DNA of 64,000 nt, from positions 62,001-126,000 of the forward strand of contig NZ_FQVT01000003.1 of NCBI RefSeq assembly GCF_900129445.1. Direction: 5' to 3'. This document shows, in pieces, positions 21,911 to 39,676 of this stretch. Origin of the DNA: Salegentibacter echinorum (GTDB lineage: Bacteria > Bacteroidota > Bacteroidia > Flavobacteriales > Flavobacteriaceae). The position numbers and the translations under genes are program-made. Position 1 is the stretch's first letter. Each line of letters starts with the position of its first letter. Below the pieces are notes generated by a model. The model did no database searches and was not told the DNA's origin. It saw nothing but the letters and a program-made list of their open reading frames with translations.

Positions 21911-22036
21911 CAAATTAGAAAAAAATCCTTGGTAAATATAGGTATCGCTTCTCTTTAGAAAGTTGTGTTGTTTTCTAAACGTAAGGGATGTGAAATTGTA
22001 AGAAAGGATATGTAAGTCTAAAGAAAAAAATAAAAC

Positions 22037-22067
22037 TTTGATTTATCAGAAATAAAGCATAAGTTTG
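22037..22067 (+). promoter_or_regulatory. Bacteroidetes-type promoter of the ilv operon
   Basis: TTTG (22037-22040), exactly 19 bases, then TAAGTTTG (22060-22067): a perfect match to the Bacteroidetes consensus. Transcription would start near 22071, about 17 bases before the Ile-rich leader peptide and about 365 bases before ilvD. The gap 21911-22036 holds nothing else recognisable. Confidence 0.75.
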
Positions 22068-22087
22068 TCTAAAGTTAAGATAGAAAA

Positions 22088-22147
22088 TTGAATAAAAGAA
22101 TTACCATATCCATTATTATAGAGATCATTTTCCCCGTGAAAACCTGA
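22088..22147 (+). CDS. Isoleucine-rich leader peptide of the ilv operon
   Basis: A short frame with TTG start and TGA stop encodes MNKRITISIIIEIIFPVKT. Seven of 19 residues are Ile, six of them within residues 7-14, plus one Val. It lies between a consensus promoter and a Rho-independent terminator, upstream of genes for isoleucine/valine synthesis. This matches the logic of ribosome-mediated attenuation: stalling at Ile codons when charged tRNA-Ile is scarce would let an antiterminator form. The gene is too short for usual gene callers and the start codon is inferred. Confidence 0.75.
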   Translation: MNKRITISIIIEIIFPVKT

Positions 22148-22150
22148 TCC

Positions 22151-22205
22151 GGATTTGGTGTGCAAGATAAAAGTTATAAAACCATCCTTCCGGGATGGTT
22201 TTTTT
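22151..22205 (+). terminator. ilv attenuator: antiterminator segment and terminator
   Basis: The terminator is AAACCATCC (22179-22187), loop TTCCG, GGATGGTTT (22193-22201), then T to 22205. Just after the leader-peptide stop, GGATTTGGT (22151-22159) is complementary, with a two-base bulge, to ACCATCC in the terminator's 5' arm, so it can act as an antiterminator. The terminator also lies about 270 bases past the response-regulator gene, but the promoter and peptide in between argue for attenuation. From 22206 to ilvD nothing further was recognised. Confidence 0.72.
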
Positions 22206-22434
22206 GTTTTAAAAATAAATATGCGGATTATGAAAGAATGTTAAAAGAAAATAACAGAAGATTTCAATAGATTAATTATATCAGCAATCGTAATATTTTA
22301 AACTATAATGCGATGAGGTACAGAATTTTATGAGGTTTTACTTAGTTATGGAAATAGTTTTTCCAGACTAAAAATTACCATAAAGACAACTAAGGAAAGT
22401 AATTTTAATTTCACAAAGTAGATAAAGATTCTCC

Positions 22435-24108
22435 ATGTATAATAAATTCAGTAAAATTTTAACACAAAGCGATTCTCAACCGGCATCTCAAGCTATGCTG
22501 CACGCTATAGGTTTAACCAAAGAAGATTTTAAAAAACCATTTGTTGGGATCGCCAGCACGGGTTATGAGGGAAACCCTTGTAACATGCACCTTAACGACC
22601 TGGCTAAATTGGTGAAAAAAGGCGCTAATGAAAGCGAATTGGTAGGTTTAATTTTTAACACCATAGGGGTTAGCGACGGTATTTCCATGGGGACGCCGGG
22701 AATGCGTTATTCCCTTCCTTCCCGCGATATTATTGCCGATTCTATGGAAACAGTAATCCACGCAATGTCTTATGATGCCTTAATTACCGTGGTGGGCTGT
22801 GATAAAAATATGCCGGGCGCATTAATGGCGATGCTGCGCATTAACCGGCCGGCGATTTTGGTTTATGGTGGCACAATAGCTTCAGGATGCCATAAAGATA
22901 AAAAGCTGGATATAGTTTCGGCTTTTGAGGCCTGGGGCGCAAAAACTGCCGGGGATATTGAAAAAGAAGAGTACGATAGTATTATTGAAAAAGCCTGTCC
23001 CGGGGCAGGTGCTTGTGGTGGGATGTACACGGCAAATACCATGGCTTCAGCTATTGAAGCATTGGGTATGGCCCTACCATATAACTCTTCCAATCCCGCA
23101 GTGGGCGAAGAAAAGAAAAAGGATAGCGAAGAAGCGGGGAAAGCGGTTCGCCTGCTTATAGAAAAAGATATTAAACCTCGCGATATTGTAACCAAAAAAG
23201 CGATAGAGAATGCCATTCGTTTGCTTACGGTTTTAGGTGGTTCTACCAATGCCGTACTGCATTTCCTTGCGATAGCGAAAGCGGCAGAAGTTGATTTTAG
23301 CTTAACCGATTTTGAAAAAATTTGTGATAACACGCCCTTTTTAGCAGATCTTAAACCAAGTGGTAAATATGCGATGGAAGATGTGCACAGAATTGGCGGT
23401 ATCCCGGCAGTTTTAAAATATATGTTGCAAAACGATATGTTGCACGGCGACTGTCTAACCGTTACCGGTAAAACCCTGGCCGAAAACCTGGCTGAAGTGC
23501 CAGAAATGGAAGAAGGACAGGATGTATTTAGGCCGCTTGATAATCCTATTAAGAAAACCGGACATATTAGAATTCTCTACGGAAATATAGCTGAAGGTGG
23601 ATCTGTAGCGAAAATAACCGGAAAAGAAGGTTTGCAATTTACCGGAACGGCCAAAGTGTTCGATAGTGAATATGCTGCAAATGATGGTATTGCTGAAGGA
23701 AAAGTGAAGAAAGGCGATGTAGTCGTCATTAGGTACGAAGGCCCAAAAGGTGGCCCGGGAATGCCCGAAATGCTTAAACCTACTTCGGCCATTATGGGTG
23801 CGAAACTAGGGAAAGACGTAGCTTTAATTACCGATGGAAGATTCTCTGGAGGAACCCACGGGTTTGTAGTAGGCCATATCACCCCGGAAGCCCAGGAAGG
23901 CGGATTACTGGCTTTCCTAAAAGACCGGGATGAAATTACAATTAATGCTGAAACCAACCGCATTGAGGTTGCGCTTTCAGAAGAAGAAATAACAAAAAGA
24001 AAGAAAAACTGGAAAGCCCCAGATTTGAAATTTAAAAAAGGAGTGCTTTATAAATATGCAAGAACGGTTTCTTCGGCCTCAGATGGCTGCGTTACCGATG
24101 AATTTTAA
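22435..24108 (+). CDS. ilvD: Dihydroxy-acid dehydratase
   Basis: Dehydrates 2,3-dihydroxy acids to 2-oxo acids in isoleucine and valine synthesis, using an Fe-S cluster. Cluster cysteines are seen in [10 protein letters not shown] (about residue 50), [11 protein letters not shown] (about 122) and [15 protein letters not shown] (about 195). [18 protein letters not shown] marks the C-terminal domain. It is 557 residues, full length. First structural gene after the Ile leader; ilvB follows after 11 bp. Confidence 0.97.
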
Positions 24109-24119
24109 TAAGGTGAATT

Positions 24120-25853
24120 ATGGAAGTAAAAACAGCGAATTTTGAAAAAGTAGCTTCTCCAAAAGCAACCACGGTATCTGGCGCAGAAGCCGTGATTAAA
24201 TGTTTGTTGGAAGAAGGCGTGGAGACGCTTTACGGCTATCCCGGCGGTGCTATTATGCCCGTTTATGATGAATTGTATAAATACCAGAACCAAATTCACC
24301 ACGTCCTCACACGCCACGAACAAGGCGCAACACACGCGGCACAGGGGTATGCCAGGGTAACCGGTAAAGTAGGGGTTGCCATGGCAACTTCGGGACCGGG
24401 GGCCACAAACCTGGTTACCGGTATTGCAGATGCACAAATAGATTCTACCCCTATGGTATGTATTACCGGGCAGGTAGGTTCACATTTGTTGGGAAGTGAT
24501 GCTTTTCAGGAGACTGATATTATTGGGATTTCTACGCCAATTACAAAGTGGAATTATCAAATAACCAAAGCCGAAGAAATCCCGGAAATTTTAGCAAAGG
24601 CTTTTTATATCGCTCGCTCGGGAAGACCGGGGCCGGTTTTAATAGATATTACTAAAGATGCCCAATTTGATTCTTTAGATTTTAATTATAAAAAATGCTG
24701 CGGTATAAGGAGCTATAAGCCAATTCCTGAAATAAACCTGTTGCAGGTAGAAAGAGCAGCAGAAGCTATTAATAACGCTAAAAAGCCAATGATTGTTTTT
24801 GGTCAAGGCGTGATTTTAGGGGGTGCTGAGGATCTCTTTAAAGAAGTAGTAGAAAAATCTGGGGTGCCGGCGGCCTGGACTATTTTAGGCCTTTCTGCCC
24901 TGCCTTCAACACATCCATTAAATGTGGGAATGGTGGGTATGCATGGGAATTATGGACCCAACGTACTTACCAATGAGTGCGATGTTTTAATTGCCATTGG
25001 AATGCGGTTTGACGATAGGGTAACCGGAGATTTAAGCAAATACGCTAAGCAGGCACAGGTAATTCACTTTGAAATTGATCCAGCCGAAATAAATAAAAAT
25101 GTTCATGCAGATATCCCGGTTTTGGGTAATGTAAAAGAAACACTTAAGGTTTTACTGGAATTAATAAAACCAAATAAACACGAAGCCTGGCACCAGGAAT
25201 TTAAAGATCATTACCAGGTAGAATATGACAAAATCATTAAAAATGATCTAAATGCCGAGCGGGGTAAAATTGGTATGGCCGAGGTTATTGATGAAATAAA
25301 TACCTGCTCTAAAGGTGATGCAGTAATTGTTTCAGATGTTGGCCAGCATCAAATGGTGGCTTGTCGCTATTCTAAATTCAATAAAACCAGGAGCAATGTA
25401 ACCTCTGGCGGACTTGGGACCATGGGGTTTGCACTGCCGGCAGCCATAGGTGCCAAAATGGGCACGCCTAACAGGGAAGTGGTTGCAGTAATAGGCGATG
25501 GAGGTTATCAAATGACCATTCAGGAATTGGGAACTATTTTTCAAACTAAAGTTCCGGTGAAAATTGTGGTGTTAAATAATGGATTCCTGGGAATGGTACG
25601 CCAGTGGCAACAGTTGTTTTTTGATAAACGCTATGCCTCTACAGAAATGATTAATCCAGATTTTGGCACTATAGCCCAGGGTTTTCATATTAAAAACAGA
25701 AAAGTTACCGAACGTTCGAATTTAAAAGATGCGGTAAAGGAAATGATGGAGTCTAAGGAGTCTTATTTCCTTGAAGTAGTTGTTGAACAGGAAGAGAATG
25801 TGTTCCCTATGGTTCCTAGCGGAGCATCAGTTTCAGATATAAGATTGGAATAA
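24120..25853 (+). CDS. ilvB: Acetolactate synthase, large (catalytic) subunit
   Basis: Thiamine-diphosphate enzyme that joins pyruvate with pyruvate or 2-oxobutyrate. It shows GYPGGAIMPVYDEL near residue 40, the catalytic Glu in LTRHEQGATHAAQGYARVTG, SGPGATNLVTGIADA, and the ThDP/Mg motif GDGGYQMTIQEL followed about 25 residues later by VVLNNGFLGMVRQWQ. It is 577 residues, full length. It overlaps the small-subunit gene by one base (TAATG). Confidence 0.97.
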   Translation: MEVKTANFEKVASPKATTVSGAEAVIKCLLEEGVETLYGYPGGAIMPVYDELYKYQNQIHHVLTRHEQGATHAAQGYARVTGKVGVAMATSGPGATNLVTGIADAQIDSTPMVCITGQVGSHLLGSDAFQETDIIGISTPITKWNYQITKAEEIPEILAKAFYIARSGRPGPVLIDITKDAQFDSLDFNYKKCCGIRSYKPIPEINLLQVERAAEAINNAKKPMIVFGQGVILGGAEDLFKEVVEKSGVPAAWTILGLSALPSTHPLNVGMVGMHGNYGPNVLTNECDVLIAIGMRFDDRVTGDLSKYAKQAQVIHFEIDPAEINKNVHADIPVLGNVKETLKVLLELIKPNKHEAWHQEFKDHYQVEYDKIIKNDLNAERGKIGMAEVIDEINTCSKGDAVIVSDVGQHQMVACRYSKFNKTRSNVTSGGLGTMGFALPAAIGAKMGTPNREVVAVIGDGGYQMTIQELGTIFQTKVPVKIVVLNNGFLGMVRQWQQLFFDKRYASTEMINPDFGTIAQGFHIKNRKVTERSNLKDAVKEMMESKESYFLEVVVEQEENVFPMVPSGASVSDIRLE

Positions 25854-26383
25854 TGGAAAAGAAAAATTTTACCGTTTCGGCATATACCGAAAACAATATA
25901 GGCTTGTTAAGCCGTATTTCAGCTATTTTTCAGAGAAGACATATTAATATAGAAAGTATTACCGCCTCAAGAAGCGAGGTAAATGAGGTGATGCGGTTTG
26001 TTATTGTAGTTTCTGTAACTGAAGAACAGGTTAAGAAAATTGTGCGCCAAATAGAGAAACAAATTGAAGTGATAAAAGCTTTTTATCATCTCGATGAAGA
26101 TATGATCTACCAGGAAACCGCGCTTTACAAAATTAATTCAGCAGAATTTGTAGAAGATTTGAGCATTCAGGACTTTATAAAAGAATCCAATGCACGTATC
26201 GTGACAGTTACACCAAAATTCTTTGTAATAGAAAAGACCGGTAAACGTCACGAAACAGATAGTCTTTACGAAAAATTAAAACCCTACGGCTTAATGCAGT
26301 TTGTGAGATCGGGGACTATTGCCGTAACTAAAAGTGAAATGCCGATCTCCAACATTTTAGAAAAATTTGATACAACCAATTAA
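25853..26383 (+). CDS. ilvN: Acetolactate synthase, small (regulatory) subunit
   Basis: A 176-residue protein with an N-terminal ACT domain: FTVSAYTENNIGLLSRISAI (residues 5-24) then FQRRHINIESITAS, followed by a second, less conserved regulatory domain. It activates IlvB and gives feedback inhibition by valine. Translationally coupled to ilvB by the TAATG overlap, which fits stoichiometric assembly. The name ilvH would be equally valid. Confidence 0.95.
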   Translation: MEKKNFTVSAYTENNIGLLSRISAIFQRRHINIESITASRSEVNEVMRFVIVVSVTEEQVKKIVRQIEKQIEVIKAFYHLDEDMIYQETALYKINSAEFVEDLSIQDFIKESNARIVTVTPKFFVIEKTGKRHETDSLYEKLKPYGLMQFVRSGTIAVTKSEMPISNILEKFDTTN

Positions 26384-26392
26384 ATAAGAGAC

Positions 26393-27868
26393 ATGACAAA
26401 TTATTTTAACAGTCTTTCTTTACGTGACCAATTAGCCCAATTAGGAACCTGTAGGTTCATGGAAAGTGATGAGTTTAACGAAGGAGTGGCTGCTTTAAAA
26501 GGAAAAAAAATAGTAATTGTAGGCTGTGGGGCACAGGGCCTTAACCAGGGACTTAACATGCGCGATAGCGGGTTGGATATTTCTTATGCGCTTCGGGAAG
26601 GTGCTATTAAGGAAAAACGACAATCCTATAAAAATGCTTCAGAAAATAATTTTACTGTTGGGACTTATGAAGAATTGATCCCAACGGCAGATTTGGTTAT
26701 TAACCTTACGCCAGATAAACAGCATACTTCAGTAATAAAAGCGATTCAGCCACACATTAAAAAAGACGCGGTACTTTCCTATTCACACGGATTTAATATT
26801 GTGGAAGAAGGTATGGAAATTAGGAAAGATATTACCGTGATTATGGTAGCGCCAAAGTGTCCCGGTAGTGAAGTTAGGGAAGAATACAAAAGAGGTTTTG
26901 GCGTACCTACTTTAATTGCTGTACACCCAGAGAACGATCCGCAGGGGATTGGTTTCGAATGGGCCAAAGCTTATGCTGTGGCTACCGGTGGAGATAAAGC
27001 AGGGGTTTTGGAATCTTCGTTTGTTGCCGAAGTGAAATCTGATTTAATGGGAGAGCAAACCATTTTATGTGGAATCTTGCAAACCGGTTCTATTTTAAGT
27101 TTTGATAAAATGGTGGCAGAAGGAGTAGATGCTTCCTATGCTGCAAAGCTAATCCAATATGGATGGGAAACCATTACCGAGGCTTTAAAACACGGCGGAA
27201 TCACCAATATGATGGACAGGCTTTCTAACCCGGCAAAAATTAAAGCCAATGAGATTTCTGAAGAATTAAAGGAAATTATGCGTCCGCTTTTCCAGAAACA
27301 TATGGACGATATTATTTCGGGGGCATTTAGCAGCAGAATGATGAAAGACTGGGCTAATGACGATAAAGAATTATTGGAATGGCGAGCCGCGACCGGGGAA
27401 ACCGCATTTGAAAAAACCGAGGCTACTTCTGAAGAAATTAAAGAACAGGAGTATTTTGATAAAGGCGTGCTTTTGGTCGCATTTGTAAAATCTGGAGTAG
27501 AACTGGCTTTTGAAACTATGGATGAAGCGGGAATTATACCAGAATCGGCTTACTATGAGTCTTTACACGAAACGCCGTTAATCGCGAATACCATTGCGAG
27601 AAAGAAATTGTTTGAGATGAACAGGATTATTTCAGATACTGCAGAATACGGTTGTTATTTATTTGATCACTCGGCCAAACCGCTTATTAAAGATTTTGTA
27701 AATAACCTGCCAAAGGAAGTAATTGGCCACGCTTATGGAACCGATTATACCGGGGTGGACAATCAGGAATTAATTGCAGTTAATGACGAGATAAGAAAAC
27801 ATCCGGTTGAAAAAGTGGGTGGCAGACTTAGAAAAGCAATGACAGCAATGAAAAAAATACAGGAATAA
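26393..27868 (+). CDS. ilvC: Ketol-acid reductoisomerase, long (class II) form
   Basis: NADPH-dependent isomeroreductase converting acetohydroxy acids to dihydroxy acids. The Rossmann motif is [18 protein letters not shown] with YALREG after strand 2, and metal-binding residues lie in [11 protein letters not shown] and the duplicated C-terminal knotted domain. At 491 residues it is the class II form, as in E. coli, plants and Bacteroidetes, rather than the 330-residue class I form. ilvA begins at the very next base. Confidence 0.97.
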
Positions 27869-29143
27869 ATGGATACAGTACTGGCAAACAAAAAAATATA
27901 CAAACCTCAATTATCAGCTGTTAAAAAAGCGGCTGAGCGAATTTCTAATGTGGCAGTAAAAACCCCACTAGGACAATCTTTTACTTACAGCAGTAAATTT
28001 TCAGCAAATGTGATGTTAAAAAGAGAAGATTTGCAACAGGTAAGGTCTTACAAGATTCGCGGCGCTTTTAATAAAATTTCCAGCTTGCCGAAAGAGCAGA
28101 TAAATAAAGGGGTGATTTGTGCCAGTGCAGGAAATCACGCGCAAGGTGTTGCTTTTGCCTGCAATAAACTGCAGGCAAAAGGCGTGATCTATATGCCCAT
28201 TACAACACCGCGACAAAAAGTGGAGCAAACTAAGATGTTTGGTGGCGATTGGGTTGAGGTTGTATTAAAAGGCGATACTTTTGATGATTCTTATAAAAGC
28301 GCAATAAAACACGGCGATAAACACGGGCTGGTTTTTATTCATCCTTTTGACGATGAAAAAGTAATTGAAGGCCAGGGGACAATAGGCCTGGAAATATTGG
28401 AACAAGCAGAAGAACCCATAGACTATGTTTTTGCTCCATTGGGCGGTGGCGGCTTGCTCGCTGGCTTGTCTTCCATGTTTAAAGAACTTTCTCCCAACAC
28501 CAAAATAATTGGTGTGGAACCAGAGGGTGCGCCTTCTATGACAGCCTCTTTAAAGGAAGGGAAACTAACAGAATTAAAATCTATTGAACGCTTTGTAGAT
28601 GGTGCTGCGGTGCAGAAAGTGGGTTCCCGAAATTTTGAAATATGCCGGGAGAACCTTCACAAAGTGATCACAATTGCAGAAGGCAAAATCTGTCAAACAA
28701 TTTTAGATCTATACAATCAGGATGCTATTGTGGTAGAGCCAGCCGGGGCCATGGCTATAAGTGCTTTAGACTTTTTTGCCGAAGAAATTAAAGGTAAAAA
28801 TGTGGTTTGCATTGTTAGTGGAAGTAATAATGATATTACGCGAACGGCAGAGATCAAAGAAAGAGCCTTGCTTTATGCAGGCTTAAAACATTACTTTGTG
28901 GTAAGCTTTCCACAGCGAGCCGGTGCTTTAAAGGATTTTGTAGAGAAGGTGTTGGGGCCAAATGATGATATTACGCATTTTGAATATTCAAAAAAACACC
29001 ATCGGGAGAATGCTCCGGCAGTGGTTGGAATAGAACTCAACGACCCTGCCGATTTTGATCCACTGGTGGCGAGAATGAAAACGAAGAATTTTTATGGTGA
29101 ATATTTAAATGACAAACCAAATTTGTTTCAATATTTAGTGTAA
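27869..29143 (+). CDS. ilvA: Threonine ammonia-lyase (biosynthetic)
   Basis: PLP enzyme making 2-oxobutyrate from threonine, the committed step to isoleucine. The PLP Lys lies in VRSYKIRGAFNKI (about residue 58), the phosphate loop is PLGGGGLLAGLSS, and SASAGNHAQGVAF-like CASAGNHAQGVAF is near 88. The 424-residue length includes a C-terminal ACT-like regulatory domain (SFPQRAGALKDFVEKVLGPN), so Ile feedback is likely. Last gene of ilvDBNCA; no terminator was seen before the arginine leader, so read-through into it is possible. Confidence 0.96.
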   Translation: MDTVLANKKIYKPQLSAVKKAAERISNVAVKTPLGQSFTYSSKFSANVMLKREDLQQVRSYKIRGAFNKISSLPKEQINKGVICASAGNHAQGVAFACNKLQAKGVIYMPITTPRQKVEQTKMFGGDWVEVVLKGDTFDDSYKSAIKHGDKHGLVFIHPFDDEKVIEGQGTIGLEILEQAEEPIDYVFAPLGGGGLLAGLSSMFKELSPNTKIIGVEPEGAPSMTASLKEGKLTELKSIERFVDGAAVQKVGSRNFEICRENLHKVITIAEGKICQTILDLYNQDAIVVEPAGAMAISALDFFAEEIKGKNVVCIVSGSNNDITRTAEIKERALLYAGLKHYFVVSFPQRAGALKDFVEKVLGPNDDITHFEYSKKHHRENAPAVVGIELNDPADFDPLVARMKTKNFYGEYLNDKPNLFQYLV

Positions 29144-29146
29144 ATA

Positions 29147-29177
29147 TTTTGTTGGTTAAAATAATTGTGTACATTTA
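29147..29177 (+). promoter_or_regulatory. Bacteroidetes-type promoter of the arginine operon leader
   Basis: TTTTG (29147-29151), 18 bases, then TACATTTA (29170-29177) resembles TTTG-N19-TAnnTTTG. The element ends only four bases before the ATG of the first Arg-rich frame, so that message would be leaderless or nearly so. It starts four bases after the ilvA stop. Confidence 0.5.
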
Positions 29178-29181
29178 CATT

Positions 29182-29244
29182 ATGCTTTCAAAGAGACAAA
29201 TAATATTACCCGTTTTTCGCTTTTTCCCGCGCCGCCGCTGGTAG
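29182..29244 (+). CDS. Arginine-rich leader peptide 1 of the arg operon
   Basis: ATG-started frame encoding MLSKRQIILPVFRFFPRRRW then TAG. Five Arg in 20 residues, with three consecutive CGC codons just before the end. It lies directly upstream of the arginine biosynthesis operon and downstream of a promoter-like pair. CGC is otherwise an uncommon Arg codon in this AT-rich window and this stretch is strikingly GC-rich against its surroundings. Interpretation as an attenuation sensor of Arg-tRNA is inference. Confidence 0.68.
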   Translation: MLSKRQIILPVFRFFPRRRW

Positions 29245-29298
29245 AAAACGAACGCGAATTAACTTTTCTTTTTTAATATTATTTGATTTTAATTTACC

Positions 29299-29403
29299 TT
29301 GAAAGATCCAAAAAACATACATACTATTTTAAACTTCAAAATTAATCCTGAAGTTTTATTTGTACGCCGCCGTTTTCCGCGTCGCACCCCGGTGCGTGTA
29401 TAA
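29299..29403 (+). CDS. Arginine-rich leader peptide 2 of the arg operon
   Basis: A second frame, TTG start (29299) and TAA stop, encodes 34 residues ending FVRRRFPRRTPVRV, with six Arg in the last 13 residues and all codons CGC or CGT. An in-frame TAA at 29290-29292 precedes it, so TTG is the only plausible start. Its tail shares the Phe-Pro-Arg-Arg flavour of leader 1. A CGCACCCCGGTGCG hairpin overlaps its last codons, and GGAAC (29410-29414) can pair with GTTCC (29428-29432) after the stop. No Rho-independent terminator follows before the first enzyme gene at 29481. Confidence 0.62.
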   Translation: MKDPKNIHTILNFKINPEVLFVRRRFPRRTPVRV

Positions 29404-29480
29404 TTATTTGGAACTTAGGTGAGTCCGGTTCCCCCTTCAAAAAACATTTTAAAATTATTTTCTCATTAATTCTTTAGCAA

Positions 29481-30128
29481 ATGAAGATTATCATTGCTAA
29501 CAAATCTCATGCGCAGTACGCAGGGATCATTTGTACAACCATAGAAGAATCTGCAAAGGTTCGAGGCACTGGGATAGCGCAAAGAACGCCAGAATATGTC
29601 ATTAACAAGATGGAAAAAGGCAATGCGGTTATCGCTTTAGAAGGCGAAAAATTCGCCGGCTTTTGCTATATCGAAACCTGGAGTCACGAAAAATATGTGG
29701 CAAACTCAGGTCTTATTGTACATCCAGACTTTCGGAATAGAGGTCTTGCGAAACAGATCAAAGCAGTAGTTTTTAATCACTCCCGGGAAAAATATCCACA
29801 TGCGAAAATCTTCGGAATTACCACCGGCCTGGCGGTAATGAAGATCAACTACGAGCTGGGATATCAACCTGTGACTTTTTCAGAATTAACCGATGATGAC
29901 AGCTTTTGGGAAGGATGTAAAACCTGTAAAAATTACGATATACTTACCAGGACCGAAAGAAAAATGTGCCTTTGTACGGGAATGATGTACGATCCCGAGC
30001 GCAAAAAAGAAAAGAAGAAAGAGACAAAGAGACAAACAAAGAAAGAAAGTCTAAATGATAAAGCTTTTAAAAGATTAAAGAACATTAAACAGACTTTGTT
30101 TTACAAAAAAGAGAAAAACAAATCTTAA
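29481..30128 (+). CDS. GNAT acyltransferase, likely N-acylglutamate synthase of the arg operon
   Basis: A 215-residue GNAT protein. The acetyl-CoA loop region is SGLIVHPDFRNRGLAKQIK (about residues 76-94), followed by GITTGLAVMKINYELGYQPV. After the fold come four cysteines in WEGCKTCKNYDILTRTERKM and CLCTGMM, possibly a metal site, and then a Lys-rich tail of about 45 residues. As the first enzyme gene of the arginine operon, with no argA or argJ seen, it is the best candidate for the first step (acylation of glutamate). Acetyl or succinyl donor undecided. Confidence 0.82.
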   Translation: MKIIIANKSHAQYAGIICTTIEESAKVRGTGIAQRTPEYVINKMEKGNAVIALEGEKFAGFCYIETWSHEKYVANSGLIVHPDFRNRGLAKQIKAVVFNHSREKYPHAKIFGITTGLAVMKINYELGYQPVTFSELTDDDSFWEGCKTCKNYDILTRTERKMCLCTGMMYDPERKKEKKKETKRQTKKESLNDKAFKRLKNIKQTLFYKKEKNKS

Positions 30129-30166
30129 AATGGGGAGAGGAAAAAATAACAGAATCTCAGCAAATG

Positions 30167-30199
30167 AGACCTCATAGGTTTCAAAAACCTGTGAGGTCT
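30167..30199. repeat. 33-bp palindrome, family A, copy 1 (before argG)
   Basis: AGACCTCATAGGTTT and AAACCTGTGAGGTCT form a 15-bp stem with one T-G wobble and a 3-base loop. First of five copies in the window. Confidence 0.88.
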
Positions 30200-30294
30200 G
30201 GAGTTAATGCGGCTCGAGATTTTATGAATGAAAACCGATATCTTAAGAAATAATAAAGAACTGGTAGTGAAAACCTGCCTTTTAATTAAACAGA

Positions 30295-31482
30295 ATGAAA
30301 AAAGTAGTAATAGCATATAGTGGTGGCCTGGATACTTCCTATTGCGCCAAATATTTATCTAAAGAAGAAAACTTTGAAGTTCATGCGGTAAGTGTAAATA
30401 CCGGCGGATTTAGTGAAGAAGAAATTAATCATATTGGAGAAAATGCAAAAAAGATAGGTGCAAAAACCTATAAAAACATTGATGCAGTAGCTTCGTTTTA
30501 CCAAAAGGTAGTGAAGTACCTAATTTTTGGAAACGTCTTAAAAAATAATACCTATCCGCTTTCGGTGAGTGCAGAACGTATAGTTCAGGCAATCGAAATT
30601 GTAAATTATGCGAAGGAAATAGGTGCTAAATTTATCGCCCACGGTAGTACCGGTGCCGGTAATGATCAAGTAAGGTTCGATATGATTTTTCAAATAATCG
30701 CTCCCGAAATTGAGATCATCACACCAATTAGGGATAAACAATTGAGCCGACAGGAAGAAATTGATTACCTACAGCAAAATGGGGTAGATATGAATTGGGA
30801 AAAGTCTAAGTATTCGGTCAATAAAGGTTTATGGGGTACCAGTGTGGGAGGTGAAGAAACCCTTACTTCAAAAGAACCACTTCCTGAAGCTGCTTATCCT
30901 TCTCAACTTCAGGAAAAAGAACCTAAAAAAATCACTTTAAGTTTTACCAAAGGTGAACTTTCTGCAGTAGATGGCAAGGCGAACTCCCCGCAAAAAAATA
31001 TTGAAATTCTTGAAAATATTGCTTCAAAATATGCTATTGGTCGTGATATCCACGTTGGAGATACCATAATTGGGATAAAAGGAAGGGTTGGTTTTGAAGC
31101 GGCAGCGGCTTTAATCACAATTAAAGCTCATCATTTATTAGAGAAGCATTGCTTGAGCAAATGGCAGCTACAACATAAAGATTACCTGGCCAATTGGTAT
31201 GGAACGCATTTGCACGAAGGCCTATATTTAGACCCAGTGATGCGTGATCTGGAAGCATTTTTAGAAAGTTCGCAGGAACAAGTGAGTGGAGAAGTGCATC
31301 TAAGCCTGCATCCGTACCGATTTACCTTAGATGGGATCACTTCTAAGAATGATTTAATGAATAATAGTTTTGGAAATTACGGTGAAGAAAATAAAGCCTG
31401 GACGGCAGATGATGCGAAGGGTTTTATAAAAATCCTTTCCAATTCGGGTAAAGTATATCAACACGTAAAAGCAGAAAAATGA
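30295..31482 (+). CDS. argG: Argininosuccinate synthase
   Basis: ATP-dependent joining of citrulline and aspartate. The P-loop-like IAYSGGLDTSYCAKYL is at residues 5-20 and HGSTGAGNDQVRFD near 120. It is 395 residues, full length and close to Bacteroidetes homologues. The ATGA overlap with argC implies coupled translation. A family A palindrome sits in the 166-bp gap before it. Confidence 0.96.
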   Translation: MKKVVIAYSGGLDTSYCAKYLSKEENFEVHAVSVNTGGFSEEEINHIGENAKKIGAKTYKNIDAVASFYQKVVKYLIFGNVLKNNTYPLSVSAERIVQAIEIVNYAKEIGAKFIAHGSTGAGNDQVRFDMIFQIIAPEIEIITPIRDKQLSRQEEIDYLQQNGVDMNWEKSKYSVNKGLWGTSVGGEETLTSKEPLPEAAYPSQLQEKEPKKITLSFTKGELSAVDGKANSPQKNIEILENIASKYAIGRDIHVGDTIIGIKGRVGFEAAAALITIKAHHLLEKHCLSKWQLQHKDYLANWYGTHLHEGLYLDPVMRDLEAFLESSQEQVSGEVHLSLHPYRFTLDGITSKNDLMNNSFGNYGEENKAWTADDAKGFIKILSNSGKVYQHVKAEK

Positions 31483-32441
31483 TTAAGGCAGGAATTATTG
31501 GTGGGGCCGGCTATACCGCCGGGGAACTTATTAGAATACTTTTAAATCATCCTAAAGTAACGCTGGATTTTGTGTTTAGCACTTCGCAGCCTGGAAAACC
31601 GGTTGCAGGAGTCCACCAGGATCTTCTAGGCGATACAGATTTACAATTTAGTGGAGCAATTAATCCTGAAGCAGATGTTGTATTTTTATGTTTAGGACAC
31701 GGAAATTCGGTTAAATTCCTCACGGAAAATCAATTTTCTGAAAAGACAAAAATTGTAGATCTAAGCACCGATTACAGGATGGAAGGCGAACATTCTTTTG
31801 TATATGGACTCCCGGAATTTTACAAGGATGAAATTAAGAAAGCAGAAAAGATTGCCAACCCCGGTTGTTTTGCTACAGCAATTAACCTGGCAATTTTACC
31901 TCTCGCAAAAGCAGAAATTTTAAAAGAAGATGTACACATTAATGCAGTAACCGGAGCAACGGGGGCTGGCACTTCACTTTCTCCCACGACACATTTTACC
32001 TGGCGTGATAATAATTTTTCTACTTATAAAGCTTTTGAACATCAACACCTCAATGAAATTGGAGAGCGGATAAAAAAATTACAGGATGATAGCCTGCCCG
32101 AAATTAATTTTATTCCAAATAGAGGGGATTTCTCAAGAGGAATTCACGCGACTGCTTATACCAAATTTTCGGGTACTCTGGAAGATGCAAAGCAAATTTT
32201 TGAAGATGCTTATAAAGCTTCCCCTTTTACCCATGTAATTTCAGAAAATTTACATTTAAAACAGGTAGTAAATACCAATAAATGCCTATTGCAGTTGCAA
32301 AAATTTGGTGATAAACTTTTAATAACCAGTATCATCGATAATCTTTTAAAAGGAGCTTCGGGACAGGCTGTAGAAAATATGAACCTCATGTTTGGTTTTG
32401 AACAAACCACAGGATTAAAATTAAAAGCGAATTATTTTTAA
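31479..32441 (+). CDS. argC: N-acyl-gamma-glutamyl-phosphate reductase
   Basis: NADPH-dependent reduction of N-acylglutamyl phosphate to the semialdehyde. N-terminal IIGGAGYTAGELIRILLNHP (residues 6-25), catalytic Cys in IANPGCFATAINLAILPL (about residue 130), and the C-terminal GASGQAVENMNLMFG signature. It is 320 residues. Its TAA lies at the first bases of a dispersed 99-bp repeat (family B). Confidence 0.96.
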   Translation: MIKAGIIGGAGYTAGELIRILLNHPKVTLDFVFSTSQPGKPVAGVHQDLLGDTDLQFSGAINPEADVVFLCLGHGNSVKFLTENQFSEKTKIVDLSTDYRMEGEHSFVYGLPEFYKDEIKKAEKIANPGCFATAINLAILPLAKAEILKEDVHINAVTGATGAGTSLSPTTHFTWRDNNFSTYKAFEHQHLNEIGERIKKLQDDSLPEINFIPNRGDFSRGIHATAYTKFSGTLEDAKQIFEDAYKASPFTHVISENLHLKQVVNTNKCLLQLQKFGDKLLITSIIDNLLKGASGQAVENMNLMFGFEQTTGLKLKANYF

Positions 32442-32539
32442 TCGCGGGGCGATAGCCAAGGGTTTAATTCCCCGGGGCTTGCCGCGAAATAAAAGAGTTT
32501 TTTCAGAAGCATACCTCGCACCCTTGGGTCGAGGTTGTT
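32441..32539. repeat. 99-bp dispersed repeat, family B, copy 1
   Basis: Begins at the argC stop codon. It contains CGCGG/CCGCG and CCCCGGGG inverted segments and a 3' hairpin ACCTCG-N11-CGAGGT. A second copy, about 80% identical over its whole length by eye, is at 57371-57467, also starting exactly at a gene's stop codon. Confidence 0.82.
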
Positions 32540-32566
32540 AATTAGGAATAAACCTTACACATAATC

Positions 32567-32598
32567 AGACCTCACAGGTTTTTAAAATTATGAGGTCT
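32567..32598. repeat. Palindrome, family A, copy 2 (before proC)
   Basis: AGACCTCACAGGTTT and, after a short loop, AAATTATGAGGTCT; one arm is degraded. A further half-site GTGAGGTCTT follows at 32609-32618. Confidence 0.82.
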
Positions 32599-32631
32599 AA
32601 CAGAATCAGTGAGGTCTTAAAAAGTAAAACC

Positions 32632-33426
32632 ATGAAAATAGCCATCATTGGAGCCGGGAATTTGGGACTTTCTATAGCGAAAGGACTTATTGTTAACAAT
32701 GCTTTTACCACGTTAGTACTTACCAGGCGTAACCTGGAGGAAATTCAGGAATACGAAGAATACGCAAAAGTAAAAGTGACTACAGATAATATGGAAGCGG
32801 TGCAGTATTCAGATATATTGATCTTTGCGGTGCAACCCACGCAATTGGAGCGAATTTTAGAAGAAATTAAAGACGATTTAACCGAAAAGCACGTCTTGAT
32901 TTCTACGGTTACCGGCTATAAAATTTCCAGTATGGAAAGCCTGGTGGGAAAAGAGCAGTTTATTATAAGAGCTATGCCAAATACCGCAATTGCTGTAGGA
33001 AAGTCTATGACCTGTTTATGTTGCAATGAAATAGGCGAGAAACGAATCACTATCGCAGAGGCTATTTTCAACAGATTGGGAAGCAGTATAATAATTCCTG
33101 AAAACAAAATGCAAGCGGCCACGGTCATTTGTGCCAGTGGTATTGCTTTTTGGATGCGGCTAATTCGCGCCACTACCCAGGGCGGGGTACAGCTTGGTTT
33201 TGATGCTGAAGATGCACAGGAGCTTTCCATGCAAACCTGTCTGGGGGCGGCAAGTTTGTTAATTGAATCTGGAAAGCATCCTGAAGAAGAAATAGACAAA
33301 GTGACCACGCCCAGAGGCTGCACCATTGAAGGCTTAAACGAAATGGAGCACAACGGGTTAAGCTCGTCGTTAATAAAAGGAATTCAGGCCTCATTTAAAA
33401 AAATCAATACCATTACAACAAATTAA
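32632..33426 (+). CDS. proC: Pyrroline-5-carboxylate reductase
   Basis: Last step of proline synthesis: NAD(P)H reduction of pyrroline-5-carboxylate. The Rossmann motif IAIIGAGNLGLSIAKGLI is at residues 3-20, and the C-terminal KVTTPRGCTIEGLNEME is the ProC signature (usual form VTSPGGTT..GL). I start at the ATG at 32632 (264 residues); the frame opens at 32590, but that part is translated palindrome. Placement inside the arginine operon links the proline branch from glutamate semialdehyde to arginine regulation. It is unlikely to belong to arginine synthesis itself. Confidence 0.93.
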   Translation: MKIAIIGAGNLGLSIAKGLIVNNAFTTLVLTRRNLEEIQEYEEYAKVKVTTDNMEAVQYSDILIFAVQPTQLERILEEIKDDLTEKHVLISTVTGYKISSMESLVGKEQFIIRAMPNTAIAVGKSMTCLCCNEIGEKRITIAEAIFNRLGSSIIIPENKMQAATVICASGIAFWMRLIRATTQGGVQLGFDAEDAQELSMQTCLGAASLLIESGKHPEEEIDKVTTPRGCTIEGLNEMEHNGLSSSLIKGIQASFKKINTITTN

Positions 33427-33428
33427 CT

Positions 33429-34556
33429 ATGGAACTATTTGATGTTTATCTGCTTTATGATATTACGCCCGTGAAAGGGAAAGATGTTTATATTTTTGAT
33501 AAAGAAGACAACAATTACCTGGATATGTATGGCGGTCACGCTGTAATTTCCATTGGACACTCTCATCCCGCCTACGTGAACGGGATTGCCAACCAGGTAA
33601 AAAAGCTGGGATTTTACTCCAATTCTATTAAAAATCCCTTGCAAAAGGAGCTTGCAGATAAGTTGGAAGAAGTTTCGGGAGTAAAGGACTATCAGCTTTT
33701 TTTATGCAATTCGGGGGCTGAAGCTAACGAAAACGCTTTAAAAGTAGCCTCCTTTCAAACCGGTAAAGACCGGGTTATATATTTTGAAAAAGCTTTCCAC
33801 GGAAGGACTTCGGGGGTGGTTGCAGTAACCGATAATAAGAAAGTGCAGGCTGCCTACAATCAGCATCATAAAACCACCAAACTTGCTTTTGAAGATTCCC
33901 GGGCCTTGGAAGAAGAATTAAAAAAAGGGGATGTGGCTGCAGTTATTTTTGAAGTGATTCAGGGAGTTGGCGGACTTGATGAAGCTGCGTCAGAATTTTA
34001 TAAGAAAACTGCAGAATTATCGAAAAAATATGGAGCCTTGTTAATTGCTGATGAAGTGCAATCGGGCTACGGAAGAACCGGAGACTTCTTCGCTTTTCAG
34101 AAACACGGGATTAGGCCAGATCTTATTTCTATCGCTAAGGGAATGGGGAATGGTTTTCCCATTGGCGGAGTCTTGATCGATAAAAATATTGAAGCAAAGC
34201 CGGGAATGCTCGGTACTACTTTTGGTGGAAACCACCTGGCCTGTGCTGCCGGAATCGCCGTCTTAGACGTTATTCAGAAGAAAAATTTAATGCAAAATGC
34301 GAAAGAACTTTTCGATTTTGTAAAAGCTGAAGCAGCAAATATTCCCGAGATTAAAAATGTAAAAGGTCGGGGCTTGATGATAGGCCTGGAATTTGATTTT
34401 GAAATTGCCGGGCTAAGAAAAGAGCTTTTGTACAAACATCAAATTTTTACTGGAGCTTCAGCAAATAAAAACCTCTTAAGGATTTTACCGCCTTTAACTA
34501 TTCAAAAACAGCATTTTAAAGCCTATTTTAAAGCATTAAAAATCGCTTTAAAATAG
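33429..34556 (+). CDS. argD: N-acylornithine aminotransferase
   Basis: PLP class III aminotransferase turning N-acylglutamate semialdehyde into N-acylornithine. It has FLCNSGAEANENALKVA (about 95-111), FHGRTSG, LLIADEVQSGYGRTGDFF and the PLP Lys in ISIAKGMGNGFPIGG (about 235). It is 375 residues, slightly short but complete. It starts two bases after proC. Confidence 0.95.
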   Translation: MELFDVYLLYDITPVKGKDVYIFDKEDNNYLDMYGGHAVISIGHSHPAYVNGIANQVKKLGFYSNSIKNPLQKELADKLEEVSGVKDYQLFLCNSGAEANENALKVASFQTGKDRVIYFEKAFHGRTSGVVAVTDNKKVQAAYNQHHKTTKLAFEDSRALEEELKKGDVAAVIFEVIQGVGGLDEAASEFYKKTAELSKKYGALLIADEVQSGYGRTGDFFAFQKHGIRPDLISIAKGMGNGFPIGGVLIDKNIEAKPGMLGTTFGGNHLACAAGIAVLDVIQKKNLMQNAKELFDFVKAEAANIPEIKNVKGRGLMIGLEFDFEIAGLRKELLYKHQIFTGASANKNLLRILPPLTIQKQHFKAYFKALKIALK

Positions 34557-34578
34557 GCTGAAAATATAGTAAAATAGA

Positions 34579-34618
34579 ACTCACAGGTCTTCGATCCCGT
34601 ATCGGGACTGTGAGGTCT
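34579..34618. repeat. Palindrome, family A, copy 3, with an inserted inner hairpin (before argF')
   Basis: Outer arms ACTCACAGGTC and GACTGTGAGGTCT flank an inner CCCGTATCGGG hairpin at about 34596-34606. The inner part resembles the CCCGATAGCTATCGGG core of repeat family C. Confidence 0.78.
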
Positions 34619-34633
34619 GGAAAACCTAGATTT

Positions 34634-35608
34634 ATGAAGAATTATATAGATTTATCAGATATAAAAGATTTACAGGCTTTATTAACCGAGGCATCAGAAC
34701 TTAAAAAAGCTCACGCTGCCTTAGAAATAGGTAAAGGTAAAACCCTGGGAATGTTATTTTTTAATCCCAGTTTGAGAACCCGATTAAGTACAGAAAAGGC
34801 TGCAAAATTGTTGGGTATGGATGTGCTGGTAATGAATGCGGGAAGCGATGGCTGGGCTTTAGAGTTTGAAGACGGCGCTATTATGAACTCCAATAAAGCC
34901 GAGCATATAAAAGAAGCTGCAGCGGTGCTTTCTCAATACTGCGACATCATTGCAGTAAGGGCATTTCCCGAATTGAAAGATAGAAAGGAAGATGAAGCTG
35001 AAAATATATTAAACAGTTTTAAAAATTATGCTTCTGTGCCGGTAGTAAATTTAGAAAGTGCCACGGGACACCCTTTACAGGCGCTTACCGATGCCCTGAC
35101 TATCCAGGAATTAAAGAAAAAAGATAAGCCCAAAGTTGTTTTAACCTGGGCACCACATCCTAAAGCATTGCCACAAAGTGTGCCCAATTCTTTTACGAAA
35201 ATGATGCAAAAAATGGAGTTTGATTTTGTGATTACCAATCCCGAAGGATATGATTTGAATCCTGAAATTACTAAAAATACCCGGGTAGTTCACAATCAGG
35301 ATGAAGCCTTAAAAGATGCCGATTTTGTATATGTAAAGAATTGGAGCAGCTATGAGGATTACGGGCAAAAACTTAGTGAAGATAAAAGCTGGATGATTTC
35401 CCAGGAAAAATTGAAGGCGACCAACAATGCCCGAGTAATGCATTGCTTACCGGTGAGACGAAATATGGTTATCGCCGATGATGTTTTGGATTCTTCAAGT
35501 TCAGCGGTAATCCTACAGGCCAAAAACCGAACATTTGCTGCACAGGCAGTATTAAAAGAAATTCTGGAAGAAACAGCAAATGCTTCAGAACTAGGAAAAA
35601 ATGCTTAG
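34634..35608 (+). CDS. argF': N-acylornithine (acetyl or succinyl) carbamoyltransferase
   Basis: Carbamoylates N-acylornithine to N-acylcitrulline, the Bacteroidetes/Xanthomonas variant of the ornithine carbamoyltransferase step. It has the carbamoyl-phosphate loop NPSLRTRLSTEKA (residues about 41-53), GHPLQALTDALTIQE, WAPHPKALPQSVPNSF and the C-terminal HCLPVRRN. The latter three are typical of the acylornithine enzymes. I use the ATG at 34634 (324 residues) rather than 34610, which would translate a palindrome. The specificity loop reads NSNKAEHIKEA; published work separates acetyl (Glu) from succinyl (Pro) types at a residue I place in this loop, and neither is obvious here. Confidence 0.93.
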   Translation: MKNYIDLSDIKDLQALLTEASELKKAHAALEIGKGKTLGMLFFNPSLRTRLSTEKAAKLLGMDVLVMNAGSDGWALEFEDGAIMNSNKAEHIKEAAAVLSQYCDIIAVRAFPELKDRKEDEAENILNSFKNYASVPVVNLESATGHPLQALTDALTIQELKKKDKPKVVLTWAPHPKALPQSVPNSFTKMMQKMEFDFVITNPEGYDLNPEITKNTRVVHNQDEALKDADFVYVKNWSSYEDYGQKLSEDKSWMISQEKLKATNNARVMHCLPVRRNMVIADDVLDSSSSAVILQAKNRTFAAQAVLKEILEETANASELGKNA

Positions 35609-35625
35609 AAATTATTAATTGACCA

Positions 35626-36405
35626 ATGACAAGACCAACATTAAAAATCGTAAAAATAGGAGGGAAGCTCATTGAGGATGAGACTAAATTCACTGAATTC
35701 TTAGACGATTTTGCTGCTTTAGAGTCGCCTAAGATTTTAATTCACGGCGGTGGAAACTTAGCTACAGAAATGGCTTCAAAGTTAGGTTATAAAACACAAA
35801 TGCACGAAGGTCGTAGAATTACCGATGTCAACTCGGTAAAAGTAATTACCATGGTTTACGGCGGATTGATCAATAAAAATATTGTGGCCAAATTGCAAGC
35901 GAGAGAAAATAATGCTATTGGCATGTGTGGGGCAGACGGGGCCAGTATCATCTCTACAAAACGCCCCGTGAAAGAAGTAGATTTTGGTTTTGTGGGAGAT
36001 GTGGAGAAAGTGAATTCGGGATTTATTGGTTCGCTTTTAGAACAACAAATTACTCCGGTGTTTTCAGCCATTTCCTGTACTAAAGAGGGGATGTTGCTTA
36101 ATACGAATGGCGATTCGGTGGCCGCTGAAATTGCCAAAGCGATGAGTGTGGAGTACAAAACAAAACTGATTTTCTGTTTTGAGAAAAAAGGAGTTTTAGC
36201 TAATCCTAAAGATGATTTATCGGTAATTGAAAACATAGATGGAGAAAAGTACAAGACGTTATTAGCAGAAAAAGTAATTAGTGATGGGATGCTCCCAAAG
36301 CTACACAATGCTTTTGAAGCTTTAGAAAATGGGGTTTCAGAGATAATCCTTGGAGATTTCAAACTTTTAAAAGGAGGTTCAATTCATACAAAAATTGTAA
36401 ACTAA
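35626..36405 (+). CDS. argB: N-acylglutamate kinase
   Basis: Phosphorylates N-acylglutamate. Amino-acid-kinase fold with VKIGGKLIEDE at the N-terminus, ILIHGGGNLATEMASKLG (about 38-55), EGRRITDVNSVKVITM, and ISDGMLPKLHNAFEAL near the C-terminus. It is 259 residues, the short Bacteroidetes type without the long N-terminal helix seen in arginine-inhibited hexameric kinases; this suggests weak arginine feedback, which would make transcription control more important. Overlaps argE by one base (TAATG). Confidence 0.94.
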   Translation: MTRPTLKIVKIGGKLIEDETKFTEFLDDFAALESPKILIHGGGNLATEMASKLGYKTQMHEGRRITDVNSVKVITMVYGGLINKNIVAKLQARENNAIGMCGADGASIISTKRPVKEVDFGFVGDVEKVNSGFIGSLLEQQITPVFSAISCTKEGMLLNTNGDSVAAEIAKAMSVEYKTKLIFCFEKKGVLANPKDDLSVIENIDGEKYKTLLAEKVISDGMLPKLHNAFEALENGVSEIILGDFKLLKGGSIHTKIVN

Positions 36406-37475
36406 TGCAAATTTCAACACTTCAGAAAGAAGCTATTAATCTACTTAAAGAGCTTATTGGCACCCAGTCCTTTTCGAAAGAAGAAGATAAAACGGCCAAT
36501 TTGCTAGAGACATGGTTTAATAATCATAACATTCCTTATGAGCGCTACTTAAATAATGTTTGGGCAACCAGCAAGTATTTTGATGAAGCCAAGCCTACTT
36601 TGCTTCTAAACTCCCACCACGATACCGTGAGACCCAATTCGGCTTATACGCGTGATCCTTTTGAGGCGACGATAGCCGATGGAAAGTTATTTGGCCTGGG
36701 GAGTAATGATGCGGGTGGATGTTTGGTGTCGCTTTTAGCGACCTTTACATACTACTATGCTTCTGAAGATTTAAATTATAACCTCATTTTCGCAGGAACA
36801 GGAGAGGAAGAGATTAATGGAAAATACGGTGTAGCCTGCCTGCTTCCTAAAATGCCAAAGATTGATGTGGCTATTGTGGGAGAACCAACCTTAATGAACC
36901 TGGCAATTGCAGAAAAAGGTTTGATTGTTTTTGATGCAAAAGTAAAAGGAACTCCTTCTCACGCAGCGCATCCAAATAATAACAATGCGATTTACAAAAG
37001 CGCTGAAACTTTAAACTGGTTTAGGGACTTTAAGTTTAAAAAGATTTCACAGGCTCTGGGCGAAGTGAAATTAACGGTCACACAAATTAAGGCGGGCAGC
37101 CAACATAATGTTGTCCCAGGGCACGTGGACCTGGTAATAGATGTAAGGGTGACCGATGCTTATTCTAATGCTGAAGTTAATGAAATACTTAAAAAAGAAG
37201 CGCCGGTAGATGAACTTAAAGCCCGATCTTTACGTTTAAATTCTTCGTCTATTCCTAAAGATCACGATTTGGTAAAAGCGGGAATCGCTTTGGGTATGGA
37301 AACATATGGTTCTCCTACACTTTCAGACCAGGCGATGTTGAATTGCCCATCCTTAAAATTAGGGCCCGGGGATTCCACGAGATCACACTCGGCAGATGAA
37401 TTTATATATGTAAAGGAGATCGAAGAAGGAATAGAAAAGTATATAAAATTATTAGAAAGAGCATTAAAAAACTAG
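36405..37475 (+). CDS. argE: M20 family deacylase, N-acylcitrulline deacylase-like
   Basis: Zinc M20 amidohydrolase. Metal and catalytic residues are visible in LLLNSHHDTVRP (about 66-77), LGSNDAGGCLVSLLATF (about 98-114) and AGTGEEEINGKYG (about 128-140), with the dimerisation domain from about residue 170. In the acylornithine pathway the acyl group is removed after carbamoylation, so the likely substrate is N-acetyl- or N-succinylcitrulline. It is 356 residues and coupled to argB. Confidence 0.92.
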   Translation: MQISTLQKEAINLLKELIGTQSFSKEEDKTANLLETWFNNHNIPYERYLNNVWATSKYFDEAKPTLLLNSHHDTVRPNSAYTRDPFEATIADGKLFGLGSNDAGGCLVSLLATFTYYYASEDLNYNLIFAGTGEEEINGKYGVACLLPKMPKIDVAIVGEPTLMNLAIAEKGLIVFDAKVKGTPSHAAHPNNNNAIYKSAETLNWFRDFKFKKISQALGEVKLTVTQIKAGSQHNVVPGHVDLVIDVRVTDAYSNAEVNEILKKEAPVDELKARSLRLNSSSIPKDHDLVKAGIALGMETYGSPTLSDQAMLNCPSLKLGPGDSTRSHSADEFIYVKEIEEGIEKYIKLLERALKN

Positions 37476-37508
37476 AGACCTCCCAGGTTTCAAAAACCTG
37501 TGAGGTCT
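37476..37508. repeat. 33-bp palindrome, family A, copy 4 (before argH)
   Basis: AGACCTCCCAGGTTT and AAACCTGTGAGGTCT around a 3-base loop, directly after the argE stop. One mismatch in the stem. Confidence 0.88.
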
Positions 37509-37528
37509 TATTTCAAGACAAAAAAATT

Positions 37529-39384: not shown

Positions 39385-39676
39385 AAATCAGAATTTTCGT
39401 GTTATCTAATTCTTTTCTGAAATATGTATTTTTAATACCTCTTTCTTCAATAAGATCAATTTGTCGTTTTAGTAATTTTTCTAATTTTTCTTTAAGCTGA
39501 AAGTATAAGTCCGTATATATAAAAGGATCATTTTCTTCGAAATCAACAACGAAATCGATATCAGAATCACTTTTAAAATCTTCTCTCGTTACTGATCCGA
39601 AAGCGGAAAATGTTTTCACTTTATATTGCTTACAAAGTTTTTTGATCCGATTAATATTTTTTTCATCTATTTTCAT
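39368..39676 (-). CDS. mntA: MntA-like nucleotidyltransferase antitoxin
   Basis: A 102-residue minimal nucleotidyltransferase. The GSX10DXD motif is visible as FGSVTREDFKSDSDIDFV (Gly27-Ser28, Asp39, Asp41). It is expected to AMPylate and inactivate the HepT toxin encoded directly downstream. It is very AT-rich, slightly more than its biosynthetic neighbours, consistent with acquisition. Confidence 0.92.
   Translation of the reverse strand: MKIDEKNINRIKKLCKQYKVKTFSAFGSVTREDFKSDSDIDFVVDFEENDPFIYTDLYFQLKEKLEKLLKRQIDLIEERGIKNTYFRKELDNTKILIYGQQN

Follow-up and report, generated by a model that had tools for sequence, protein, structure and literature searches.

The leader of the arginine biosynthesis operon in Salegentibacter echinorum carries short reading frames rich in codons for the end product of the operon, arginine, ahead of the genes for its synthesis. 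The preliminary description of this DNA had proposed two peptides in series; both frames are present, but they are unequal. The second frame (ORF2), together with two hairpins (A and B), is the conserved core of the leader, and the first frame (ORF1) is an additional module that about half of the loci carry and the rest lack. On comparison of the sequence with its relatives, we judge it moderately probable that the region is a ribosome-operated arginine sensor of the arg operon with two leader modules in series, in which stalling at Arg codons would keep the operon on.

The window analyzed is a stretch of 64,000 nucleotides from a genome assembled in 40 contigs, and its features are given in Table 1. 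The preliminary description had placed two mini-ORFs directly ahead of the arginine biosynthesis genes, within a GC-rich island amid AT-rich sequence; both frames and their position were confirmed in the sequence, and GC content was 0.47 at 29350–29449 against 0.21 at 29250–29349. The GNAT gene that opens the operon had no NCBIfam match at 1e-10, and the assignments of several other operon genes score below the strictest curated NCBIfam cut-offs. Beside the operon end, two small adjoining genes on the minus strand (39043–39676) resemble a toxin–antitoxin pair of the HEPN/MNT type. Elsewhere in the window (22088–22207), a classical-looking ilv attenuator was noted by eye, with a TTG-started 19-codon frame containing seven Ile codons and a hairpin (AACCATCC-TTCC-GGGATGGTTTTTTT) with seven T, about 230 bases ahead of the first ilv gene. 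The TTG start is common to this ilv leader frame and ORF2.

Table 1. Coordinates of the leader and operon features within the window
Feature	Position	Strand	Basis
Leader region	29144–29480	+	between ilvA end (29143) and GNAT start (29481)
Promoter-like TTG-18 nt-TACATTTA	29149–29181	+	sequence, spacing in relatives; 4 nt ahead of ORF1 start
ORF1 leader peptide, ATG start, MLSKRQIILPVFRFFPRRRW	29182–29244	+	sequence, relatives
P1 5' strand, ORF1 codons 6–9	29197–29208	+	perfect 12-nt complement of 29274–29285, p = 0.002 versus shuffles
Inner stem-loop region T1 around ORF1 Arg codons and stop	29211–29258	+	predicted fold
P1 3' strand, 13 nt before ORF2 start	29274–29285	+	complementarity, relatives
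ORF2 leader peptide, TTG start, 34 aa, tail FVRRRFPRRTPVRV / RRRFPRRTPVRV, six Arg, all CGC/CGT	29299–29403	+	sequence, relatives
Hairpin A, CGCAC-CCCG-GTGCG, overlaps last ORF2 codons	29383–29396	+	pair counts
Hairpin B, 6-bp stem, UA bulge, GG/CC, loop UGAGU	29410–29432	+	pair counts, model matches
G-poor spacer up to GNAT start	29433–29480	+	base composition
GNAT gene, first of arg operon	29481–30128	+	gene calls, homology
argG, argC, proC, argD, N-acetylornithine carbamoyltransferase, argB, ArgE/DapE-type deacylase, argH	30295–38806	+	gene calls, NCBIfam

Arg-rich frames of the leader

Conservation was assessed in 81 loci, comprising the window and the best 80 of 240 GNAT relatives, for which 340–420 bases upstream were read. 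An automatic test detected a short frame with at least four Arg in its last nine codons in 55 of the 81 loci, compared with five on the reverse strand and a mean of 0.33 (maximum 3) in dinucleotide shuffles, in agreement with the initial claim of an Arg-rich leader of the arg operon; the Arg-tail score of the window alone was matched in 0.6% of dinucleotide shuffles. The hairpin B loop, present in 79 of the 81 loci, served as an anchor, and L023 and L077, from which the loop motif is absent, were left out of the anchored set. An ORF2 Arg tail (frame stop 8–40 nt before the hairpin B loop and at least three Arg in the last nine codons) was found in 77 of the 79 anchored loci, the two below threshold, L042 and L080, having two Arg each, and in all 40 loci of a second set drawn from other genera, which was selected by the hairpin model and is not an independent sample for the hairpin. 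Throughout the relatives' leaders the Arg codon run was kept while flanking residues drifted, the pattern that the preliminary description had anticipated upstream of GNAT/argG. Its F-P-R-R core common to both tails does not generalise and is not supported as a meaningful shared motif, since in most of the listed relatives ORF1 and ORF2 do not have it in common.

All 38 two-ORF loci examined at the ORF2 start have TTGA, which is invariant in 36 aligned rows, and in the 40-locus set ORF2 stops either 26–31 nt or 17–19 nt before the hairpin B loop. Arg codons of the ORF2 tail are CGC or CGT in 267 of 279 cases (79 loci) and 155 of 162 (40 loci), compared with 191 of 572 in 48 ORFs of the window; the automatic frame choice behind the codon counts took another frame in L200 and L209. 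Such bias is compatible with few tRNA species reading these codons or with constraints set by hairpin A, from which part of it may come. The residue encoded at the hairpin A arm tracks the pairing, proline accompanying CCC/GGG and threonine CAC/GTG, which points to the codons and the RNA, not to the peptide.

ORF1 has five Arg among 20 residues (four CGC, one AGA). An automatic rule, which may include chance frames, counted frames of this type (at least three Arg in the last nine codons) in 39 of 79 and 18 of 40 loci, and their Arg codons are CGC/CGT in 113 of 154 and 63 of 72 cases, respectively. The promoter-like sequence TTG-18 nt-TACATTTA resembles the Bacteroidetes promoter consensus. In 34 of 42 two-ORF loci the first start codon follows a TAnnTTTN motif at a distance of exactly 4 nt, and in 27 of 39 single-ORF loci the distance is exactly 7 nt; TTG lies 18–19 nt upstream in 24 of 40 loci carrying the motif. 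With the motif so close to the start, the first frame of two-ORF and single-ORF loci alike is nearly leaderless, and ORF1 is probably almost leaderless, consistent with the suggestion of a possibly leaderless first frame in the preliminary description.

A putative pairing, P1, would connect the first codons of ORF1 with the sequence immediately ahead of the ORF2 start. Its strands are CAAATAATATTA and TAATATTATTTG in the window, and in other two-ORF loci the corresponding sequences are ATGAAAAATA, AAAAATAAAAT, AAATTAAAAT or ATGAATAAAA. The longest complement averaged 9.3 nt versus 6.5 nt in shuffles, reaching p < 0.05 in 13 of 25 loci and not significant in 12, and an energy test with swapped partners ranked the native pair first in just 3 of 25 loci; both tests left out L148, in which the start pattern did not occur as expected, and L118, for which an ORF1 start was not listed. 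Counterparts of T1 in relatives, seen by eye and in folds, have enclosing stems of different sequence. Fold z scores of module 1 in five relatives were −4.1, −4.4, −3.5, −3.2 and −1.6.

A different layout was found in the most frequent genus of the sample (g43), which is probably Flavobacterium. Eight of its 13 loci (L123–L128, L148 and L149) keep ORF1 with Arg codons, followed by a frame from TTG that has no Arg run (zero to two scattered Arg) and is open for 55–63 codons; no sign of the A/B element was seen by eye in these eight. The TGA of this relay frame overlaps the ATG of GNAT in six loci and stands one base before it in two (L123 and L148). The relay frames have partly conserved ends, LKS... 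and, in several, ...QLLK. No such frame was seen in the other five of the 13: L122 has an RRRFRP end and an altered hairpin, and the relay frame was not found in L129, L130, L147 and L150 (second GNAT copy). It is mainly this g43 layout, as expected of a relay from ORF1 to ORF2 to GNAT, that leads us to read ORF1 as controlling ORF2. Dual sensing by ORF1 and ORF2 is possible, set against the 8 of 13 g43 loci in which an ORF2 lacking the Arg run looks like a relay.

Hairpins A and B and their distribution

Hairpin A most commonly takes the forms CGCAC/GTGCG and CGCCC/GGGTG. Hairpin B with its near-invariant loop, which the preliminary description did not mention, is the most unusual feature of the leader. 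Hairpin B has a bulge of A or UA and a loop of UGAGU, in relatives also UGUGU or UGCGU, that usually conforms to U-G-N-G-U; its stem varies among GGAAC/GTTCC, GGAAAT/ATTTCC, GGAGC/GCTCC and GAAGT/GCTTC, and in L116 the inner GG/CC is changed to GA/TC. A MAFFT alignment of 28 sequences had 97% of cells pairing, with two pairs changed on both sides. Among 82 wider-spread model matches, a few of them weak, two-sided changes affected 11 of 13 pairs (90 cells versus 19.3 in shuffles), and the first set, with 81 matches, had them in 5 of 13 pairs (52 cells versus 17.5), although such model-fitted alignments lean towards the model. Ensemble folding of 43 single-ORF sequences recovered both hairpins, and no shared alternative exceeded about 0.2 in mean pairing probability. 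No Rfam 15 match was found to E = 1 in 21000–31000 of the window, and six relatives yielded only a tRNA at gathering scores.

Several roles for these structures were considered and dropped. The AGGUGA of the hairpin B loop matches the complement of the 16S 3' end, but a Shine–Dalgarno role was set aside because the UGUGU and UGCGU loops of several relatives and the closing GA in place of GG in L116 and L158 weaken or break that pairing, and because no start codon lies at a usable distance. Docking of hairpin A as a GNRA loop was likewise dropped, since its frequent GTAA loop gives way to GTTT or other sequences in some loci. A T-box was rejected as no UGGN able to take a tRNA end was seen by eye. 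The bulged A beside GG/CC of hairpin B resembles an MS2-type protein-binding hairpin.

The hairpin model gave one match in the own genome. Four further AGGTGNGTCC sites in this genome have no flanking inverted repeat and no stem, and hairpin B is therefore seemingly not a general element. A first model matched 80 of the 81 source loci at E ≤ 2e-7 (all except L077) and 35 of 60 relatives' genomes at E ≤ 0.1, with a single match in most, and a second model matched 197 of 299 Flavobacteriaceae genomes, representing 140 of 203 genera, at E ≤ 0.01. In a sample of the class, besides two family members, only weak matches were obtained, in 6 of 149 genomes (E 0.002–0.01). Upstream of GNAT–argG lay 56 of 60 inspected matches, a count that leaves out 15 further weak ones; the four not at GNAT (L111, L175, L178 and L181) are weak, with E from 2e-5 to 0.003. 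The 56 include L171, L173, L174 and L177, where 155–233 bases separate hairpin B from GNAT, so that the typical spacing of about 60 bases is not strictly required.

In other families of the order, single Arg-rich leaders were found in L132, L137, L133, L143 and L144 and, less clearly, in L135, L136, L138 and L139. The hairpins that follow the leaders in L132, L143, L144 and L122 have, by eye, UACGU or UCCGU loops that recall the UGNGU of hairpin B, and are possibly a diverged form of this element. None of the seven loci of family f5 (L134, L140, L141, L142, L145, L146 and L151) had a visible Arg leader; AT-rich repeats around GATAAT/ATATCT were noted by eye directly before GNAT in L134, L140, L142, L145 and L151 and may represent a different, DNA-level control. 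The family appears to lack the usual arginine repressor, ArgR (PF01316), which was found in none of the 60 relatives' genomes, the own genome included. Across the class it was found in 8 of 149 genomes, seven of them over the cut-off, the own genome again having none; this rarity means that the absence of ArgR is not special to leader-carrying genomes.

Candidate mechanisms of control

Were charged tRNA-Arg in short supply, the proposed sensor would have ribosomes stall or queue on ORF1, so that P1 is held open and the ORF2 start is free; ORF2 would then be translated, and its ribosome would stall at the CGC/CGT run, covering the 5' arm of hairpin A and leaving the leader in the expressing state. 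With sufficient arginine, ribosomes would quit both frames, P1 and hairpin A would form, and expression of GNAT and the genes downstream would drop through a last step that may be translational, Rho-dependent or factor-bound. Evidence against the sensor is that the folds of the window are not outstanding, with z of −1.75 for module 1 and +1.18 for segment 29385–29440, which holds hairpin B and most of A with two bases missing. The 12 of 25 loci without a significant P1, the outcome of the partner-swap test and the five g43 loci without a relay frame also count against it. By the usual footprint, a ribosome stalled at R17–R19 of ORF1 would moreover not reach the P1 5' strand, which only queued ribosomes would cover. 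Direct hiding of the GNAT start by hairpin A or B is not apparent, since the start lies in a G-poor and apparently open spacer.

How expression would be lowered bears on two related alternatives. In classical transcription attenuation, hairpin A (and T1 of module 1) would terminate weakly because its U tract is imperfect, and a stalled ribosome would prevent this. The preliminary description had noted no Rho-independent terminator, and a standard scan indeed detected none in 29144–29480 of the window, the two sites found being inside or after GNAT; a loose scan qualifies this absence, as terminator-like sites around hairpin A (module 2) occurred in 43 of 81 loci versus a mean of 11.1 in shuffles. 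Some ORF1 modules, e.g., L008 and L016, also have a stem followed by a U run, and the ilv leader at 22088–22207 has a classical appearance by eye. Module 1, however, was near chance in the loose scan (7 of 42 loci versus 4.1, shuffle maximum 6), A and G interrupt the tract after hairpin A, and a terminator at A would leave the conservation of hairpin B downstream unexplained, and we regard attenuation of this type as unlikely. Alternatively, Rho may load on the G-poor spacer once ribosomes are released and stop transcription before or in GNAT, as in the precedent of Salmonella orf34–speF (PMC6386406). Spacer composition is indirectly in line with such loading, with G at 5.8% over 79 loci and C minus G at +0.117, compared with 14.1% and +0.017 in 31 other 5' stretches of the window, and the ORF2 that stays open up to GNAT in 8 of 13 g43 loci would also shield from Rho. 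At a mean of 48 nt the spacer is nonetheless short, its C content of 17.5% is no more than moderate, its low G fits Rho or simply an open start, and the hairpin B loop is again unexplained; we view Rho-dependent attenuation as possible but rather doubtful.

Two further explanations concern the frames themselves. In 35 of the 40 other-genus loci the last residues of the frame are RRP, and the stop falls within the hairpin A loop, reminiscent of an arginine-responsive arrest peptide in which excess arginine, not its lack, would stall the ribosome at the stop codon. Loci with a differing hairpin A also differ in this end (RRT-stop, RRTFVRV, RRTFVRA, RRRPGRM), such that pairing can explain the residue, and the remainder of the ORF2 peptide drifts; nascent-peptide arrest accordingly seems quite improbable to us. 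Even less credible, and highly improbable overall, is that the frames are by-products, hairpins A and B alone mattering and the CGC/CGT repeats feeding hairpin A. The last ORF2 Arg codons do fall within hairpin A, but the Arg run reaches upstream of it, ORF1 is also Arg-rich while lying outside it, and in families f2, f3 and f7 even loci that gave no model match carry a single Arg-rich leader.

The reader of hairpin B is probably either a factor acting in trans or the transcription machinery itself. Its near-invariant loop is explained by neither Rho, a terminator nor an open start, which leads us to suggest, tentatively and with limited confidence, that it is the binding site of a novel trans-acting factor or itself a sensing motif and that the arg operon would thereby integrate two signals.

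Relation to known leaders and significance

In attenuation of the trp/his/ilv type, codons for the end product occupy a leader frame that precedes the operon for its biosynthesis. The arg leader shares this arrangement and differs in that no standard terminator/antiterminator pair was found, that tandem frames occur in some loci and that one hairpin loop is near-invariant. The systems below are compared as far as the available portions of the cited reports describe them. In orf34 of Salmonella speF, consecutive Arg codons in a short leader sense arginine by ribosome pausing (PMC6386406); the Arg-codon leader frame is the clear point of likeness, and the refolding RNA, the involvement of Rho and the lack of an intrinsic terminator in orf34 are features that the arg leader may share. 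Unlike the arg leader, orf34–speF precedes a polyamine gene, has one frame, responds to high arginine with mRNA decay and belongs to another phylum, and the available part of that report mentions no hairpin B-like element (PMC6386406). Translational attenuation of ermB also has two leader frames in series before its target gene but relies on drug-induced stalling ahead of a resistance gene, with no amino acid codon sensing in the portion available (PMC8274638). Arg codons in the leader frame of Staphylococcus aureus rbfL sense arginine at the level of translation, a parallel to the proposed sensor; there, pausing blocks the downstream start, the target is a biofilm regulator and the codons are AGA/AGG (PMC13009471).

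Among related bacteria, leader-peptide attenuation has been proposed in general terms before amino acid operons of Flavobacterium psychrophilum, and the conserved 5' elements named in the available part of that source include pheA and hisG but no arg element (PMC9723704). Leader genes proposed to raise translation through reinitiation, with a short frame near the gene start, have also been counted in Bacteroidetes, comparable to the g43 relay; this is a statistical proposal that, in the part available, makes no tie to arginine or to an A/B element (PMC4833913). No arg leader of this bacterial group was among the matches listed in the open-access literature (without supplements). The leader is of a known kind with regard to its Arg-codon frames (speF, rbf) and serial leaders (ermB), and no match to hairpin B was found.

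The analysis defines an RNA element, backed by paired changes, in about two-thirds of the sampled family genomes (197 of 299), and the double, single and relay forms among loci make the logic and evolution of serial leader peptides directly testable. Because ribosomes of these bacteria work without Shine–Dalgarno pairing (PMC9976891), the finding raises the question of how a leader works where such pairing is forgone. If the two-signal reading of hairpin B were true, tRNA-Arg charging would be sensed through one or two leader frames and combined with a second input at hairpin B in most of the family. The proposed sensor would provide a means of controlling arginine synthesis for a large family in which the sampled members are without ArgR.
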